The notes under the pieces are model-generated. The model was given only the letters and a program-made list of their open reading frames with translations. It made no database searches and was not told where the DNA came from. The position numbers and the translations under genes were made by a program. Below, piece by piece: positions 20,916 through 29,465 of a stretch of DNA of 30,983 bases (position 1 is its first letter; the number at the start of each line of letters is the position of its first letter). The stretch covers positions 1 to 30,983 of IMG/VR virus record IMGVR_UViG_3300006350_000069; one strand, written 5' to 3'. The stretch comes from a virus.

Positions 20916-21588
20916 TTTCATACACGGAGACGCCTTTGATGTATTTAAACAAATGCCAGACCAAAGTGTTAACTTAACATTTACTAGTTTACCAGATATA
21001 TCACAAACGCCTTATGGTAAAGATGTTAAGAAATATCAAGTATTACAAAATCAAGCGTGTGATGAAATGGCAAGAACAACTAAAGATGATGGTTTTGTAG
21101 TTATATCACAAACAGATAGAAAAATAAACGGCGAGATATTGCCTAATCATATTACATATTACAATGCAATGTTAAGAAATGGTTATGTTTTAAAAGACTA
21201 TAAGATAATGGTCAGAAACTATCCAGTAGATAAAAGAGATATGTATTATTTCAATTATCAACATTGTTTAGTATTTACAAAGAAAGGTACAATTAAAAGA
21301 AGTGGTGATTGGTTAAAGAACATATTAGTATATGATACGAAAAGACTAGGAAATGTAAAAGGTCCTTTTAACTTATATGTGTGGAACGATAACTTCATTA
21401 AACTTGTAATTGAATATCTATCAAAAGAACAAGATATAGTATCTGATCCATTTGCAGGGTCAGGTGTTGTGCCTTGGATTGCAAAAGAAATGAGAAGACA
21501 ATATATAGGCGTAGAACTAGATAAAGAGGTATATGATAAATCATACTTTAAAAGACTAGACCTGCTTGACAGGTTTGGGAAAGTATGA
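20896..21588 (+). CDS. DNA-methyltransferase-fold protein (N6-A/N4-C type layout) with altered catalytic motif
   Basis: 230 residues. The circularly permuted amino-methyltransferase layout is clear: GDAFDVFKQMPDQSVNLTFT at the N-terminus (motif IV region first) and SDPFAGSGVVPWIAKEMRRQ with IGVELD near the C-terminus (S-adenosylmethionine site, DPFAGSG at 184-190). At the place of the catalytic (D/N/S)PP(Y/F/W), however, it reads SLPD (31-34). Cofactor binding looks intact while the base-binding catalytic tetrad is changed, so its target may not be the usual exocyclic amino group. GGAGAG lies before the ATG, inside the DUF4385 gene. Strong family call, uncertain reaction. Confidence 0.82.
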   Translation: MNNIINNFIHGDAFDVFKQMPDQSVNLTFTSLPDISQTPYGKDVKKYQVLQNQACDEMARTTKDDGFVVISQTDRKINGEILPNHITYYNAMLRNGYVLKDYKIMVRNYPVDKRDMYYFNYQHCLVFTKKGTIKRSGDWLKNILVYDTKRLGNVKGPFNLYVWNDNFIKLVIEYLSKEQDIVSDPFAGSGVVPWIAKEMRRQYIGVELDKEVYDKSYFKRLDLLDRFGKV

Positions 21589-21594
21589 TAGCGT

Positions 21595-23540: not shown

Positions 23541-23580
23541 CGTAATCGCCCTCCAGCGCCCTCCAGACCCGCCGAAAACC
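23541..23580 (+). promoter_or_regulatory. C-rich island with tandem decamer, possible Rho-loading site
   Basis: 20 of 40 bases are C and 7 are G, in sharp contrast to the AT-rich surroundings. It contains CGCCCTCCAG twice in direct tandem (23547-23556, 23557-23566). The C-over-G bias, many pyrimidine-C steps and lack of strong pairing resemble Rho utilisation sites, and it sits between the end of the long operon and the promoter of the next gene. The 197-nt gap up to the cobT-like promoter otherwise shows no convincing gene. Confidence 0.4.
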
Positions 23581-23646
23581 TACGATTTAAGGGTCATTAT
23601 AACAATATATTAAAAAACCCTTATATATCAACGCTAAAAAAAATTA

Positions 23647-23706
23647 AAAAAATGCTCATATTTCGCTTGACATATGTTTCAATATATGGTAGCATATGTG
23701 TATAAA
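23647..23706 (+). promoter_or_regulatory. Sigma70-like promoter module, copy 1 (cobT-like gene)
   Basis: TTGACA (23667-23672), 17-nt spacer, TAGCAT (23690-23695), preceded by an A tract and TGCTCAT. About 60 bp are repeated at 26092-26151 with 7 mismatches. TATAAATG just downstream (23701-23708) is one base off the late consensus. Confidence 0.8.
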
Positions 23707-23729
23707 TGATAAACAAAGGACACAACACT

Positions 23730-26051
23730 ATGAATTTGAACATTGATTCCAAATCTCAATTAGCAAAATTACTTGCTACAGAAAACATTACAATTCAACA
23801 CAACAATGTAGCGACTGCTTCTTTTAATTTAGAAGACAGGGTACTTACTATTCCAGTTTTTAAAAATCCTAGAGGTGCTGTTTATGATATGTTAATTGCA
23901 CACGAAGTTTCTCACGCTTTAAATACTCCTGCTGAAGAGTGGAAGAATTGTTTAAATGGTGACAATAATTTACTTGATATTAAAGATTACATAAATGTTA
24001 TTGAAGATGTTAGAATTGACAAATTAATTCAAAAGAAATATCCTGGTGTTGTACAAGATTATAAAGATGGTTTCAATATTCTTTGGAATGATGACTTCTT
24101 TAATGTTAGAAATAAGAATTTAAATACTGAATTAATGTTGATTGATAAAATCAACCTATACTTTAAATCTTCAAAACAATTAGATAGTATCAAATTTTCT
24201 AATGAAGACAAATTATTTGTAGACCTAGTTGATAGTTGTAAAACTTTTAAAGATGTTATTGAGGCTGCAAAAAAATTATCTGATTGGCAGAAAAAACAAA
24301 ATGAAAGTCTTAAAAAATTACCTGACTTTGATAGTCATCCTTTAGTAAAAATGTATGGCGAACAAGAAAAATCAGAAGAGGAAGATGATGAAAATTCACA
24401 ATCAAATTCAGATAGTAAATCATCTGACCAGAATAACGAACAAGAGAAGAGTGATTCCGATAGTCAAAACGAACCTACTAAATCAGAAGACGCAACAAAA
24501 GAAAACGGCGATGGTTCAAAAGAAACTGAAGGTGAAAAAGAAAATTCAGAAGACAAGTCTGATAAAGTAAAAAATCAATATGGTAATCCTGATGGTGCTG
24601 GTGGTGATAATGTTAAGATTAATATGCCACTTAAATCTATAACTCAAAACAATATTGACAATTCAATTCAACAAAGATATGTAGATGGTGAAAGTAGAGG
24701 TTACAATTACTTTCAAATACCTGACGCAAATTTAGATGAGATTGTTTATTCTAATAAGAACTGGTTAAAAGTTAATAACGAATATATGGTTAAACACCAT
24801 AGTAAAAATGCTATTAATCAAAACTTTGAAGAATACAAAAAATTCAAAAGAGATAGTAAGGCAACTATTTCATACCTTGTTAAAGAGTTTGAAATGAAGA
24901 AATCTGCTGAAGGTTACAAGAGGCAGACTACTGACAAGACTGGAATTATTGACCCACTTAAATTACACAAATACAAAATATCAGAAGACATATTTAAAAG
25001 ACTATCAGTAATACCTGACGCTAAAAACCACGGGATGATTTTATTACTTGATTGGTCAGGTAGTATGTCAAATTGTATTGGCAAGACGGTTGACCAATTA
25101 TTACAATTAGTTTGGTTCTGTAAACAAATTAATATACCTTTTAAAGTATATTTCTTTTCAGATAGAATACAAAATGCTTCTTGGAATGAAAGAAGATTTG
25201 ACGCAAAAGAGAATAAGAAAACTTGTTTTAAATTCAAAGCAGGTGATAGTGTGTTTGAAGCATTTAATTTAGTTGAGATTGCTAATCATACTATTAAAAA
25301 ACAAAAATTAGACCAATCATTATTTTACTTATATGCTTATGGTAAGTATTACAATGACAATTATTCATATAGAAGAAACTTGGAATACATTGAAAGATTA
25401 TATCCGCCTAGTGAGTTTCATCTTTCTTCTACTCCTTTGAACGAGGCACTTGCTACTATGTACAAGATTGTTCCTTTGTTTAAAACAAAGTATCAAGTGT
25501 CTAAACTTTCATTAATTACTTTAACTGATGGTCATAGTAATAGAGATAACAAAGGTAACTTTATGACCGTTGATGGTGTTGTTAGAGAAATGCCTGAAAG
25601 AGGTTATGGTTCGCAAGGTATCTTAAAATTATCTAAAGGAAAAGAAATTAAAGGTCAAGGTGGTACAACAGGATTATTACTGACTGGACTTAAAAAGAAA
25701 TTTGGTATTACTACTATCGGTTTCTTTATTTTAAAATCTAGTAGAAGATGGGAGTTTGATAGATACGCATTATCTCAAAGACAACATAAATTATCTTGGG
25801 AATTGCAAGACCAGATTAAACTTAAAGTTAGAGCAGAATATAATAAACACAAAGCTGCTTCAGTTGAAGCATATGGTTATAACGAATTTTATCTAATCAA
25901 TGGTAAAGATATGCAAGTACAAAATGCTAACCTAGATGAGATAAAAGAAGACGCTAAAAAAGGTGATATCAGAAGAGCGTTTAGTAAATCAATGAAACAA
26001 AGAACCGTTTCCAGAGTATTATTAAACAAATTTATTAAACAGGTCGCCTAG
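23730..26051 (+). CDS. CobT-like VWA protein with N-terminal HExxH metallopeptidase motif
   Basis: 773 residues from ATG 23730, which has AAAGGA upstream; an in-frame ATG at 23706 is too close to the promoter start point. N-terminal part: LIAHEVSHALNTP with zinc motif H58-E59-x-x-H62. Residues about 210-290 are a Ser/Glu/Lys/Asp-rich linker, like the acidic region of CobT. C-terminal VWA domain: LLLDWSGSMSN gives the MIDAS DxSxS (Asp441, Ser443, Ser445), with a later LTDGHSN acidic site. The partner AAA+ ATPase is the next gene. This layout matches AAA+/VWA chelatase or chaperone pairs; here a role in cobalt chelation is doubtful since no other cobalamin gene is present. Confidence 0.85.
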   Translation: MNLNIDSKSQLAKLLATENITIQHNNVATASFNLEDRVLTIPVFKNPRGAVYDMLIAHEVSHALNTPAEEWKNCLNGDNNLLDIKDYINVIEDVRIDKLIQKKYPGVVQDYKDGFNILWNDDFFNVRNKNLNTELMLIDKINLYFKSSKQLDSIKFSNEDKLFVDLVDSCKTFKDVIEAAKKLSDWQKKQNESLKKLPDFDSHPLVKMYGEQEKSEEEDDENSQSNSDSKSSDQNNEQEKSDSDSQNEPTKSEDATKENGDGSKETEGEKENSEDKSDKVKNQYGNPDGAGGDNVKINMPLKSITQNNIDNSIQQRYVDGESRGYNYFQIPDANLDEIVYSNKNWLKVNNEYMVKHHSKNAINQNFEEYKKFKRDSKATISYLVKEFEMKKSAEGYKRQTTDKTGIIDPLKLHKYKISEDIFKRLSVIPDAKNHGMILLLDWSGSMSNCIGKTVDQLLQLVWFCKQINIPFKVYFFSDRIQNASWNERRFDAKENKKTCFKFKAGDSVFEAFNLVEIANHTIKKQKLDQSLFYLYAYGKYYNDNYSYRRNLEYIERLYPPSEFHLSSTPLNEALATMYKIVPLFKTKYQVSKLSLITLTDGHSNRDNKGNFMTVDGVVREMPERGYGSQGILKLSKGKEIKGQGGTTGLLLTGLKKKFGITTIGFFILKSSRRWEFDRYALSQRQHKLSWELQDQIKLKVRAEYNKHKAASVEAYGYNEFYLINGKDMQVQNANLDEIKEDAKKGDIRRAFSKSMKQRTVSRVLLNKFIKQVA

Positions 26052-26091
26052 TATATGCAAAAAGCGTTGATATATATGACAAAAAAACTTG

Positions 26092-26151
26092 AAAAAATGC
26101 TCATTTTTTGCTTGACATATGTATCAAAATATGGTAGCATATATACATAAA
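26092..26151 (+). promoter_or_regulatory. Sigma70-like promoter module, copy 2 (cobS-like gene)
   Basis: TTGACA (26112-26117), 17-nt spacer, TAGCAT (26135-26140). Fifty-three of 60 positions equal copy 1, including the non-consensus -10 and the upstream A tract plus TGCTCAT. The gene has AAAGGAG before its ATG. Confidence 0.82.
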
Positions 26152-26173
26152 CTAAAAAAAGGAGAACTACATT

Positions 26174-27424
26174 ATGTTAACTTTGAACACTAAACAAAAA
26201 GAGTTTGTTGACGCTGCCCAAAAGATGTACAACAAACCTACTTTGAATAACGAGGAGTTATTGAAAGTATCCAAGTCTCTTGGAATGAATTTCAAACCAC
26301 AATGGTTGGTAAGAAATCCTGAATTGAGAGTTGGTAGAGGCGAATATAAATTGCCTTTAGACGGTATCCCTGCCGTTGATCCTGTATCTAATGACAAAGT
26401 TTTGTCTGATACAAATACTTCAACTAAAGTTGAGAAGAAACCAGAAGTTGTTTCTGAAACACAATCAGAAGCTGCTTATGTGATTTCATCTTTACAAGGT
26501 GATATTGTTCCACAAAAAGACAATGGCTTCGTTTCATTTGGTAACCATCCAGATGTAAGAAGTATTGTTAAATCAAAAAGATTTTATCCGATATTCATTA
26601 CTGGTCTTTCTGGTAACGGTAAGACTTTTTCTGTTGTTCAGGCTTGTGCCGAGAGTAAGAGAGAAATGATTAGGGTAAACATTACTATTGAAACAGACGA
26701 GGACGATTTACTTGGCGGTTACAGACTTAAAGATGGTCAAACCGTGTGGCAGAATGGTCCTGTTATTGAGGCAATGGAGAGAGGTGCAATATTGCTCCTT
26801 GATGAGATTGACCTTGCGTCTAATAAGATAATGTGTTTACAACCAATCCTAGAAGGTAATGGTGTCTATGTTAAAAAGATAAACAAGTTTGTTAAACCTG
26901 CTCAAGGTTTCAATGTTGTTGCAACTGCTAACACTAAAGGTCAAGGTAGTGAAGACGGCAAGTTTATCGGTACTAACATATTGAACGAAGCGTTCCTGGA
27001 AAGATTTCCAGTTACCTTTGAACAGAAATATCCTGCTGTAAAAACAGAGCAGAAAATTCTTAACAACACTCTTGCTGCCGCTGGCAAAAAAGATGAAAAG
27101 TATGTTGAGAAGTTATCAACTTGGGCTGATGTAATCAGAAAAACCTACTTTGATGGTGGGGTTGATGAGATTATATCAACAAGAAGATTAGTCCACATTG
27201 TTCAAGCATATTCAATCTTCGGTAATAAGATGAAGGCAATTGAATTGTGTACTAATAGATTTGATGATGATACAAAAGCTTCTTTTGTTGACTTGTATAC
27301 TAAAGTGGATGCTGGGGCAACTGCCGAAAGTATCGCTGAAGAACAAAAGGCTGAAGCCTTGAAAGCTCAACAAATGATGTCCAATGATAGTGAGGAAGAA
27401 GAGGACGAGGAAGAACTTGTTTAA
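26174..27424 (+). CDS. cobS: CobS-like MoxR-family AAA+ ATPase
   Basis: 416 residues. Core AAA+ domain at about 135-330: Walker A GLSGNGKT (144-151), EDDLLGGYRL, Walker B LLLDEID (Asp210, Glu211), sensor block FNVVATANT, and the arginine-containing FLERFPVTFE. GGYRLKDGQTVWQNGPVIEA is the typical CobS/MoxR insertion. N-terminal 130 residues and the extremely acidic C-terminal tail are less conserved. Called cobS in cyanophages, where it was proposed to assist cobalamin synthesis; in this window the adjacent CobT-like VWA-peptidase protein suggests a two-part remodelling machine. Followed by a strong terminator. Confidence 0.93.
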   Translation: MLTLNTKQKEFVDAAQKMYNKPTLNNEELLKVSKSLGMNFKPQWLVRNPELRVGRGEYKLPLDGIPAVDPVSNDKVLSDTNTSTKVEKKPEVVSETQSEAAYVISSLQGDIVPQKDNGFVSFGNHPDVRSIVKSKRFYPIFITGLSGNGKTFSVVQACAESKREMIRVNITIETDEDDLLGGYRLKDGQTVWQNGPVIEAMERGAILLLDEIDLASNKIMCLQPILEGNGVYVKKINKFVKPAQGFNVVATANTKGQGSEDGKFIGTNILNEAFLERFPVTFEQKYPAVKTEQKILNNTLAAAGKKDEKYVEKLSTWADVIRKTYFDGGVDEIISTRRLVHIVQAYSIFGNKMKAIELCTNRFDDDTKASFVDLYTKVDAGATAESIAEEQKAEALKAQQMMSNDSEEEEDEEELV

Positions 27425-27452: not shown

Positions 27453-27484
27453 GGAGAGGCGTGTAGTGGCGCCTCTCCTTTTTT
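27453..27484 (+). terminator. Strong rho-independent terminator after the cobS-like gene
   Basis: Perfect 9-bp GC-rich stem GGAGAGGCG / CGCCTCTCC around an 8-nt loop, followed by six Ts. Separates the AAA+/VWA module from the DUF3310-S21-Hsp20 region. Confidence 0.95.
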
Positions 27485-27836: not shown

Positions 27837-28046
27837 GTGAGTATAACGGTTGTTGTAAGAAATAATAACTTGGAACAAGCAATGCGTGTACTAAAAAAGA
27901 AGGTACAAAAAGCAGGTCTTGTTAAAGAGTTGAGACAAAGGCAATATTATGAAAAGCCTTGCGATAAAAGAAATCGTAAAAAGAAAGAAATGACTGCTGC
28001 CTGGAAGAAAAAACAGAAGAAGTTAAAAGCACAAAGAGGTTATTAA
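27837..28046 (+). CDS. rpsU: Ribosomal protein bS21 homologue
   Basis: 69 residues beginning at GTG. Matches bacterial bS21 along the whole length: VVVRNNNLEQAMRVLKKKVQ, KAGLVKELRQRQYYEKP (E. coli has ...LAEVRRREFYEKP), then a Lys/Arg-rich tail. bS21 sits next to the anti-Shine-Dalgarno end of 16S rRNA and affects start selection. Phage-encoded bS21 is known from marine phages including pelagiphages and is thought to bias host ribosomes to phage mRNA. Start chosen because AAGGAGGT lies 8 nt upstream; the ATG six bases earlier is followed at once by TAA. The gene upstream of a large noncoding interval. Confidence 0.95.
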   Translation: MSITVVVRNNNLEQAMRVLKKKVQKAGLVKELRQRQYYEKPCDKRNRKKKEMTAAWKKKQKKLKAQRGY

Positions 28047-28889: not shown

Positions 28890-29429
28890 ATGCAAGGAAT
28901 GAAAATCCCAAAGGTTACATTTAGAGTTAGAGTTGGTGACGAAGAACCAACAGACGGCGGCTGTGCAATCGGTGGCGAGTGGAAGAATATGACAACAGAC
29001 GATTACTTCAAAGGTAAGCGTGTTGTTCTTTTCTCTCTCCCAGGTGCATTTACGCCAACTTGTTCTTCACAACAACTTCCATCTTTTGAAAAGGAGTATG
29101 GTCAGTTAAAACTGCTAGCTGTTGATGAAGTTTATTGTGTATCTGTTAATGACAGCTATGTAATGAACGCTTGGGCAAAACATATGGGTATTGAAAGTGT
29201 CAAATTAATACCAGATGGCTCAGGAAATTTTACACGATTTATGGGTATGCTTATAGGTAAGAACCATCTAGGTTTTGGTATGAGGTCTTGGAGATATATG
29301 GCTGTTATCAATGACGGAGTTGTTGAGAAATGGTGGCAAGAACCAGGAATTAATAACGAAGGATTAGATGATGACCCTTACTTTGAAAGTACACCTAAAA
29401 ATGTTATTGACTATTTACGAAATAATTAG
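28890..29429 (+). CDS. Peroxiredoxin (Prx5/AhpC-TSA type)
   Basis: 179 residues. Reduces hydrogen peroxide and organic peroxides through a peroxidatic Cys. Active-site signature PGAFTPTC at 51-58 is the Prx5 form, with Thr55 and Cys58, followed by SSQQLPSFEKEY. Later blocks DEVYCVSVNDSYVMNAWAKH and LIPDGSGNFTRFMGM match the Prx5 family. Arg in FGMRSWRYMAVINDG fits the catalytic Arg. Length is close to bacterial Prx5-like proteins. Has its own promoter, so it is an independent early/middle gene. ATG 28899 is a possible alternative start. Confidence 0.93.
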   Translation: MQGMKIPKVTFRVRVGDEEPTDGGCAIGGEWKNMTTDDYFKGKRVVLFSLPGAFTPTCSSQQLPSFEKEYGQLKLLAVDEVYCVSVNDSYVMNAWAKHMGIESVKLIPDGSGNFTRFMGMLIGKNHLGFGMRSWRYMAVINDGVVEKWWQEPGINNEGLDDDPYFESTPKNVIDYLRNN

Positions 29430-29436
29430 TCGCCTA

Positions 29437-29465
29437 TTGACAAAGGACCCACACTATTATATAAT
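29437..29465 (+). promoter_or_regulatory. Consensus sigma70 promoter for the sliding clamp gene
   Basis: TTGACA, 17-nt spacer, TATAAT: a perfect match with optimal spacing, followed by AAGGAG and the clamp ATG 27 nt beyond the -10. Strongest host-type promoter in the window. Confidence 0.95.

Follow-up and report, generated by a model that had tools for sequence, protein, structure and literature searches.

Two near-identical promoter modules precede two consecutive genes of a T4-like pelagiphage, one encoding a peptidase/VWA-like protein (pep) and the other a cobS-like AAA+ ATPase. These modules are probably two separate, long-established promoters of a phage-wide class, nested one within the other's reach and kept alike by conversion or by shared selection. 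Computation established that both modules are there, which class they belong to, that relatives conserve them and that the two resemble each other specifically as a pair.

A repeated module flanks pep

The window, the whole stretch of DNA analysed here, comprises 30,983 bases of a virus record and carries T4-like structural and replication genes; it belongs to a T4-like phage that has the pelagiphages Mosig and HTVC008M among its relatives. The closest annotated phages for the AAA+ protein are Mosig EXVC030M (70% identity) and HTVC008M (62%), both of which have the pep and cobS-like pair in identical order. The 2.3-kb pep gene is flanked by both promoter copies, and its HExxH and DWSGSMS motifs are unchanged in the three relatives compared. 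The AAA+ gene failed the equivalog test for a true cobaltochelatase CobS (TIGR01650, 63.1 bits against a cut-off of 558.55), and the best solved relatives of its product by sequence are midasin and CobS. Judged by gene family, the two proteins are plausible partners. The features of the region are as follows.

21566..21594, + strand: third, weaker match to the promoter class, TTGACA-17-TAGCGT (score 18.8), within the end of a methyltransferase gene
23622..23634, + strand: TATATATCAACGC, found by reading the sequence, directly 5' of the module 1 A-tract; reverse complement of the element at 26065-26077
23638..23706, + strand: module 1, predicted promoter (matrix score 36.4), with A-tract, TGCTCAT (23653-23659), TTGACA (23667-23672), 17-nt spacer and TAGCAT (23690-23695)
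23730..26051, + strand: pep, peptidase/VWA-like protein (PHROG 459, E 2e-183), with HExxH and DWSGSMS motifs
26065..26077, + strand: GCGTTGATATATA, found by reading the sequence, directly 5' of the module 2 A-tract, in the orientation opposite to 23622-23634
26083..26151, + strand: module 2, predicted promoter (matrix score 36.1), with A-tract, TGCTCAT (26098-26104), TTGACA (26112-26117), 17-nt spacer and TAGCAT (26135-26140)
26174..27424, + strand: cobS-like/MoxR-type AAA+ ATPase (PHROG 249)
27453..27478, + strand: strong intrinsic-terminator-like hairpin followed by a T-run (fold z -3.98), at the end of the presumed operon

The initial annotation had described a duplicated 60-bp module, and the copies at 23647-23706 and 26092-26151 indeed agree at 53/60 positions, with every named part (A-tract, TGCTCAT, TTGACA, 17-nt spacer and TAGCAT) present in both. 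The best register of the repeat starts at 23638/26083 (54/60), and no further non-overlapping 60-mer pair in the window attains 44/60. Gapped BLAST extended the repeat to 23606-23742 / 26052-26189 (78% over 142 columns, E 2e-22), and this pair was the sole self-match of the window at E 1e-4. The weaker match at 21566..21594 overlaps coding sequence, which leaves its conservation ambiguous.

Several other observations concern the surrounding DNA. Upstream of module 1, a tandem 10-mer (CGCCCTCCAG, 23547-23566) forms a GC-rich island in sequence of 33% G+C, and relatives L009-L017 hold other GC-rich sequences at that place. A phage-encoded ribosomal protein gene, bS21 (27837-28046), lies between the AAA+ gene and Hsp20; a search by bS21 for the SAR11 host met 14 loci, none of them labelled SAR11. 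The peroxiredoxin gene at 28890-29429 is 80% identical in L090, where neighbour genes are 96-97% identical, and local exchange between the window and L090 is possible. A perfect TTGACA-17-TATAAT of a different flavour (CTATTGACAAA) stands before the sliding-clamp gene at 29437-29465 and recurs in G001 and G003.

Both copies resemble T4 early promoters

By their sequence, both copies are predicted promoters of the T4-early type, made of A-tract, -35, TGn and -10. The description of each as promoter-like is borne out by the elements found in both: a -35 and -10 within 16-18 nt of each other (TTGACA-17-TAGCAT, 10/12 matches) and, by inspection, an A/T-rich UP region in the form of the 5' A-tract. 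Within ATATGG, the conserved end of the spacer, lies a TGn extended -10 that was flagged at both copies and that occurs in 37 of 73 accepted promoters of relatives. The -10 hexamers of these 73 promoters were TAGGAT (44), TAGCAT (8), TATTAT (7), TATAAT (7) and others (7), so TAGCAT, initially called odd, is not unusual for the phage group. No known RNA element was found at gathering score.

T4 early promoters are described, in a review of T4 transcription, as UP/-35/TGn/-10 composites with extra conserved regions (PMC2988021). The modules share with them the element order A-tract, TTGACA, 17-nt spacer, TGn and -10, but differ in a -10 that is mostly TAGGAT or TAGCAT, in the GC before TTGAC and in lineage-specific upstream elements; relatives of the window phage infect SAR11, not E. 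coli. A MotA-type middle promoter is ruled out by spacing, since that type is described in the same review as having a MotA box, centred at -30 and ~13 bp from the -10, in place of the -35 (PMC2988021), and the consensus -35 of the modules sits 17 nt from the -10. Homologues of motA and asi are reported absent from pelagimyophages (PMC7029224). The 56-58 bp class I intergenic repeats of halovirus HF2, described as carrying promoters of early-middle genes and as conserved in relatives (PMC8707807), are likewise repeated, promoter-bearing units kept in relatives, but they hold archaeal TATA/BRE promoters of unrelated sequence.

Most relatives have a predicted promoter in front of each gene

Relatives were the best 80 of at least 119 confirmed for the AAA+ gene, with HTVC008M, Mosig and AG-345-L05 added. 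Contigs nearly identical to the window's phage, among them L001, L006, L086, L087 and L092, plus L007 and L088-L091 in some tests, did not enter the counts, and remaining near-duplicates were recognised by common 8-mers or by identity of the module or protein and dropped. An early, lax promoter score that had no control passed 67/67 and 88/88 regions and was replaced by a held-out matrix, trained without the tested lineage and allowing spacers of 16-18 nt; a 40-nt pattern over 20 records was too strict for use. Among the best 80 of at least 119 relatives plus the three added, this matrix detected the promoter class upstream of pep in 36/40 distinct regions and upstream of cobS in 37/43, compared with 0/200 and 0/215 shuffled controls (0/415 together), and a fixed-spacer matrix matched ~2-3% of random 140-nt stretches. 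The class was missing before pep in L005, L026, L030 and L045 (4/40; L030 narrowly) and before cobS in L018, L020, L027, L049, L081 and L083 (6/43; L049 narrowly). On this distribution, pep and cobS have each long carried a separate promoter.

Absence of the module from close relatives that carry both genes would have refuted the initial reading, but the promoters are present there; both modules are common to L008, L009 and L093 of the window's clade. L009 matches module 2 at 58/60 positions, against 71% identity in the neighbouring end of pep and 78% at the start of the AAA+ gene; positions 26073-26132 are identical at 60/60 there, against a mean of 80% for 60-nt windows. About 4% of such windows equal module 2 in conservation. 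In L012 neither module is conserved above average, which limits strong module conservation to close relatives.

Paired promoters resemble each other within a phage

If the two promoters had evolved independently, the pep promoter of one phage should be no closer to the cobS promoter of that phage than to the cobS promoter of another. Across 33 genomes, own pairs were more similar than cross pairs over the whole module (0.561 vs 0.489, z 6.4), the spacer (0.499 vs 0.363, z 5.4) and the extended -10 (z 4.8), with 0/5000 permutations reaching the observed value in each case. With the register shifted the signal disappears, the spacer and extended -10 giving z between -0.9 and 0.6, apart from one puzzling comparison, that of the stretch downstream of the -10 (z 3.2 at +4). 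The -35 (z 2.0) and far upstream segments (z 1.6) carried little pair-specific signal in the same 33 genomes, which counts against conversion, as conversion would homogenise these segments too.

A genome-wide "dialect" found no support as the source of this resemblance. For the spacer plus extended -10 in 24 genomes, pep-cobS pairs gave z 6.2, whereas comparison with other promoter matches of the same genome (1-17 per genome, false positives included) gave z 0.4 for pep and 1.3 for cobS. In a nearest-relative test the own pair beat the cross pair in 23/30 cases (Wilcoxon p 0.003). In 11/30, the genome's own cobS promoter was a closer match to the pep promoter than the orthologous pep promoter was; in 15/30 it was a poorer match and in 4/30 an equal one. 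Own-pair closeness is clear in L031, L049, L070, L075 and L093, the last being very close to the window. Because the own cobS promoter was less close in 15/30 and equal in 4, homogenisation is recurrent and not universal.

We read this pattern as recurrent, pair-specific concerted evolution of neighbouring promoter copies. The initial annotation was right that the spacer is informative, as spacer and extended -10 co-vary between paired promoters, but recent duplication, one of its two readings of the spacer conservation, is not supported. The kind of promoter seems ordinary (T4-early type); what looks unusual, from the sequences compared, is the pair resemblance kept in many lineages and the clade-specific upstream elements.

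The same co-variation in spacer and extended -10, restricted to the pair and missing from the genome's other matches, would also be expected if a phage- or host-coded regulator bound the spacer/-10, and perhaps TGCTCA, of only these two promoters, so that their sites co-evolved. In some relatives full dyads (TGAGCATTTTGCTCA, GAGCATAATGCTC, GAGCATTTGCTC) stand in place of TGCTCAT, upstream of a 163-aa gene in L137 and L152 and upstream of pep in L010 and L012, and these possible operators would favour such a regulator. We nevertheless consider it unlikely, as the regulator is hypothetical, TGCTCA also stands before other genes and, with the copies adjacent, short-range recombination is a simpler cause of pair resemblance than a pair-specific regulator.

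The promoter class occurs elsewhere in these genomes

An IMG/VR scan with the pattern TGCTCAY-NN-TTY-GCTTGAC-W found ~70 matches in 64 stretches. The downstream ORFs were cobS (21), pep (6), a ~70-aa protein (15), a ~72-aa protein (6), a 200-aa protein (5) and three further kinds (2, 2 and 1 cases), placing the TGCTCA-to-TTGAC part before six gene families besides pep and cobS; ~11 of the ~70 matches lacked promoter-like context or a sensible downstream ORF and resemble unrelated coding DNA. Genome-wide, a matrix trained without these two phages found 19 class matches in HTVC008M and 14 in Mosig at score >=13. With an earlier matrix, the numbers at score 8 were 27 and 21, against 10 and 5 in reversed controls, and a quarter to a third of these weak score-8 matches may be false. 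The module is thus not specific to the two genes, given that TGCTCA..GCTTGAC precedes other families and that the two complete genomes hold 19 + 14 matches.

One near-copy in HTVC008M is longer. The region upstream of its pep recurs in front of gp165, a gene 46 kb distant (113/141 positions), and more weakly in front of its own cobS (68% over 98). This 141-bp composite of box, hairpin and promoter, 80% identical between its two sites (L095:37758-37896 and L096:34405-34543, or about 87258 and 133405 in HTVC008M coordinates), had a fold z of -3.2 against shuffles at pep and -1.6 at the other site. Self-BLAST of HTVC008M was dominated by matches around 44-54 kb.

Repeated promoter units, and a composite with a hairpin at two places in HTVC008M, are what would be seen if the modules were mobile regulatory cassettes of the PeSL kind, spreading and shuffling genes by homologous recombination. 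PeSLs (promoter early stem-loops) are reported in T4-type phages and have in common with the modules that early-promoter units recur between the genes of a T4-like phage, with the long near-copy elsewhere in HTVC008M as a further likeness. That the modules are such cassettes is quite unlikely: the stem-loop/terminator that accompanies the early promoter of a PeSL is absent at the window copies, and the genes around pep and cobS keep their order in both annotated relatives. PeSLs come in many near-identical copies per genome that mediate gene shuffling; the 31 kb of the window contain two close copies and HTVC008M one 80% copy. We rejected the idea that pep had been exchanged as a block with the modules as its borders, as per-feature identities reveal no swapped block and no sharp borders.

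A class that is phage-wide, with its core conserved everywhere, could also suggest that the two copies resemble each other merely through the sigma-70 consensus and shared base composition, with no special process involved. This is very unlikely, as the excess similarity sits in the low-information spacer, is gone in shifted register and is absent in comparison with other matches of the same genome.

Apparently nested promoters argue against matched protein amounts

A scan, which is weak evidence, found no terminator-like hairpin between pep and the AAA+ gene or just before pep, and neither copy of the module showed a terminator, a hairpin or an unusual fold. The promoters therefore look nested, and with no terminator between the genes the AAA+ gene would be readable from both promoters, making equal amounts of the two proteins unlikely. 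The matched protein amounts proposed at first fit poorly with this layout, in which the strong terminator follows the AAA+ gene; for the amounts to come out equal, translation of the two genes would have to compensate. An excess of an AAA+ ring subunit over its VWA partner would be sensible.

Our preferred explanation, two long-established promoters kept alike, can be set out as follows. The modules would be strong promoters for host RNA polymerase before two consecutive genes of a T4-like pelagiphage. Transcripts from module 1 would cover pep and, with no terminator to stop them, continue through the AAA+ gene; module 2 would supply additional AAA+ message, and transcripts from both would stop at the terminator at 27453. 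Short homologous recombination (conversion), or shared selection on the pair, would from time to time reset one copy to the other. Activity, early timing, nested read-through and conversion as the cause are what we infer from the sequences. Recent duplication of a promoter, giving matched amounts of two partner proteins, is hardly credible despite the high identity of the copies and two gene families plausible as partners, because both promoters occur in most relatives, most distant relatives included, the clade members L008, L009 and L093 share both, and the layout is nested.

Many relatives carry LexA-type boxes in front of pep

GTTC-N7-GTTC, in either orientation, was found in 37/62 pep upstream regions, against 0.28 expected by shuffling, and in 0/79 cobS upstream regions. 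With near-duplicates removed, 23/39 distinct pep upstream regions had the repeat at N7, compared with 0 at N3-N6 and N8-N11, 4 at N2 and 1 at N12. The boxes lie ~85-200 nt upstream of pep in L003, L004, L019, L022, L030, L037 and others. In HTVC008M 4/8 boxes, and in Mosig 3/4, had a promoter match no more than 110 nt downstream, where 0.12 and 0.05 were expected.

GTTC-N7-GTTC is the form of the alphaproteobacterial LexA box (PMC7987155), and the host HTCC1062 is reported to possess lexA, recA and umuDC (PMC12753301). A strict box was present near lexA in 32/40 alphaproteobacterial loci, including 6/6 with <37% G+C (not necessarily SAR11), in a non-random set of the 30 best-scoring and 10 hand-picked loci, mostly from small genomes. 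The repeats upstream of pep in many relatives have the exact N7 spacing of this SOS box, but none was found at pep in the window or its close relatives, and the modules in that clade lack it too. The literature searched, covering few subscription journals, held no report of GTTC-N7-GTTC boxes in pelagiphages.

It is possible, though doubtful, that in T4-like pelagiphages the two promoters of the peptidase/AAA+ pair co-evolve, lineage after lineage, as parts of an operon under special control, that many lineages link the first of them to the SOS repressor of the host through an upstream LexA-type box, and that the TGCTCA element has replaced this box in the window's clade. If true, damage to the host would feed into a T4-like phage that is lytic.

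Implications for pelagimyophage gene control

Pelagimyophages are abundant, and the group is not known to be temperate. Prediction of middle and late promoters is reported to have failed in them (PMC7029224). A concrete early-promoter class together with lineage-specific upstream elements makes gene control in these phages testable, and the pep/cobS pair is a clear-cut case in which to test whether neighbouring promoters evolve in concert. If the LexA-type boxes are bound, the SOS status of the host would feed into pelagimyophage infection.
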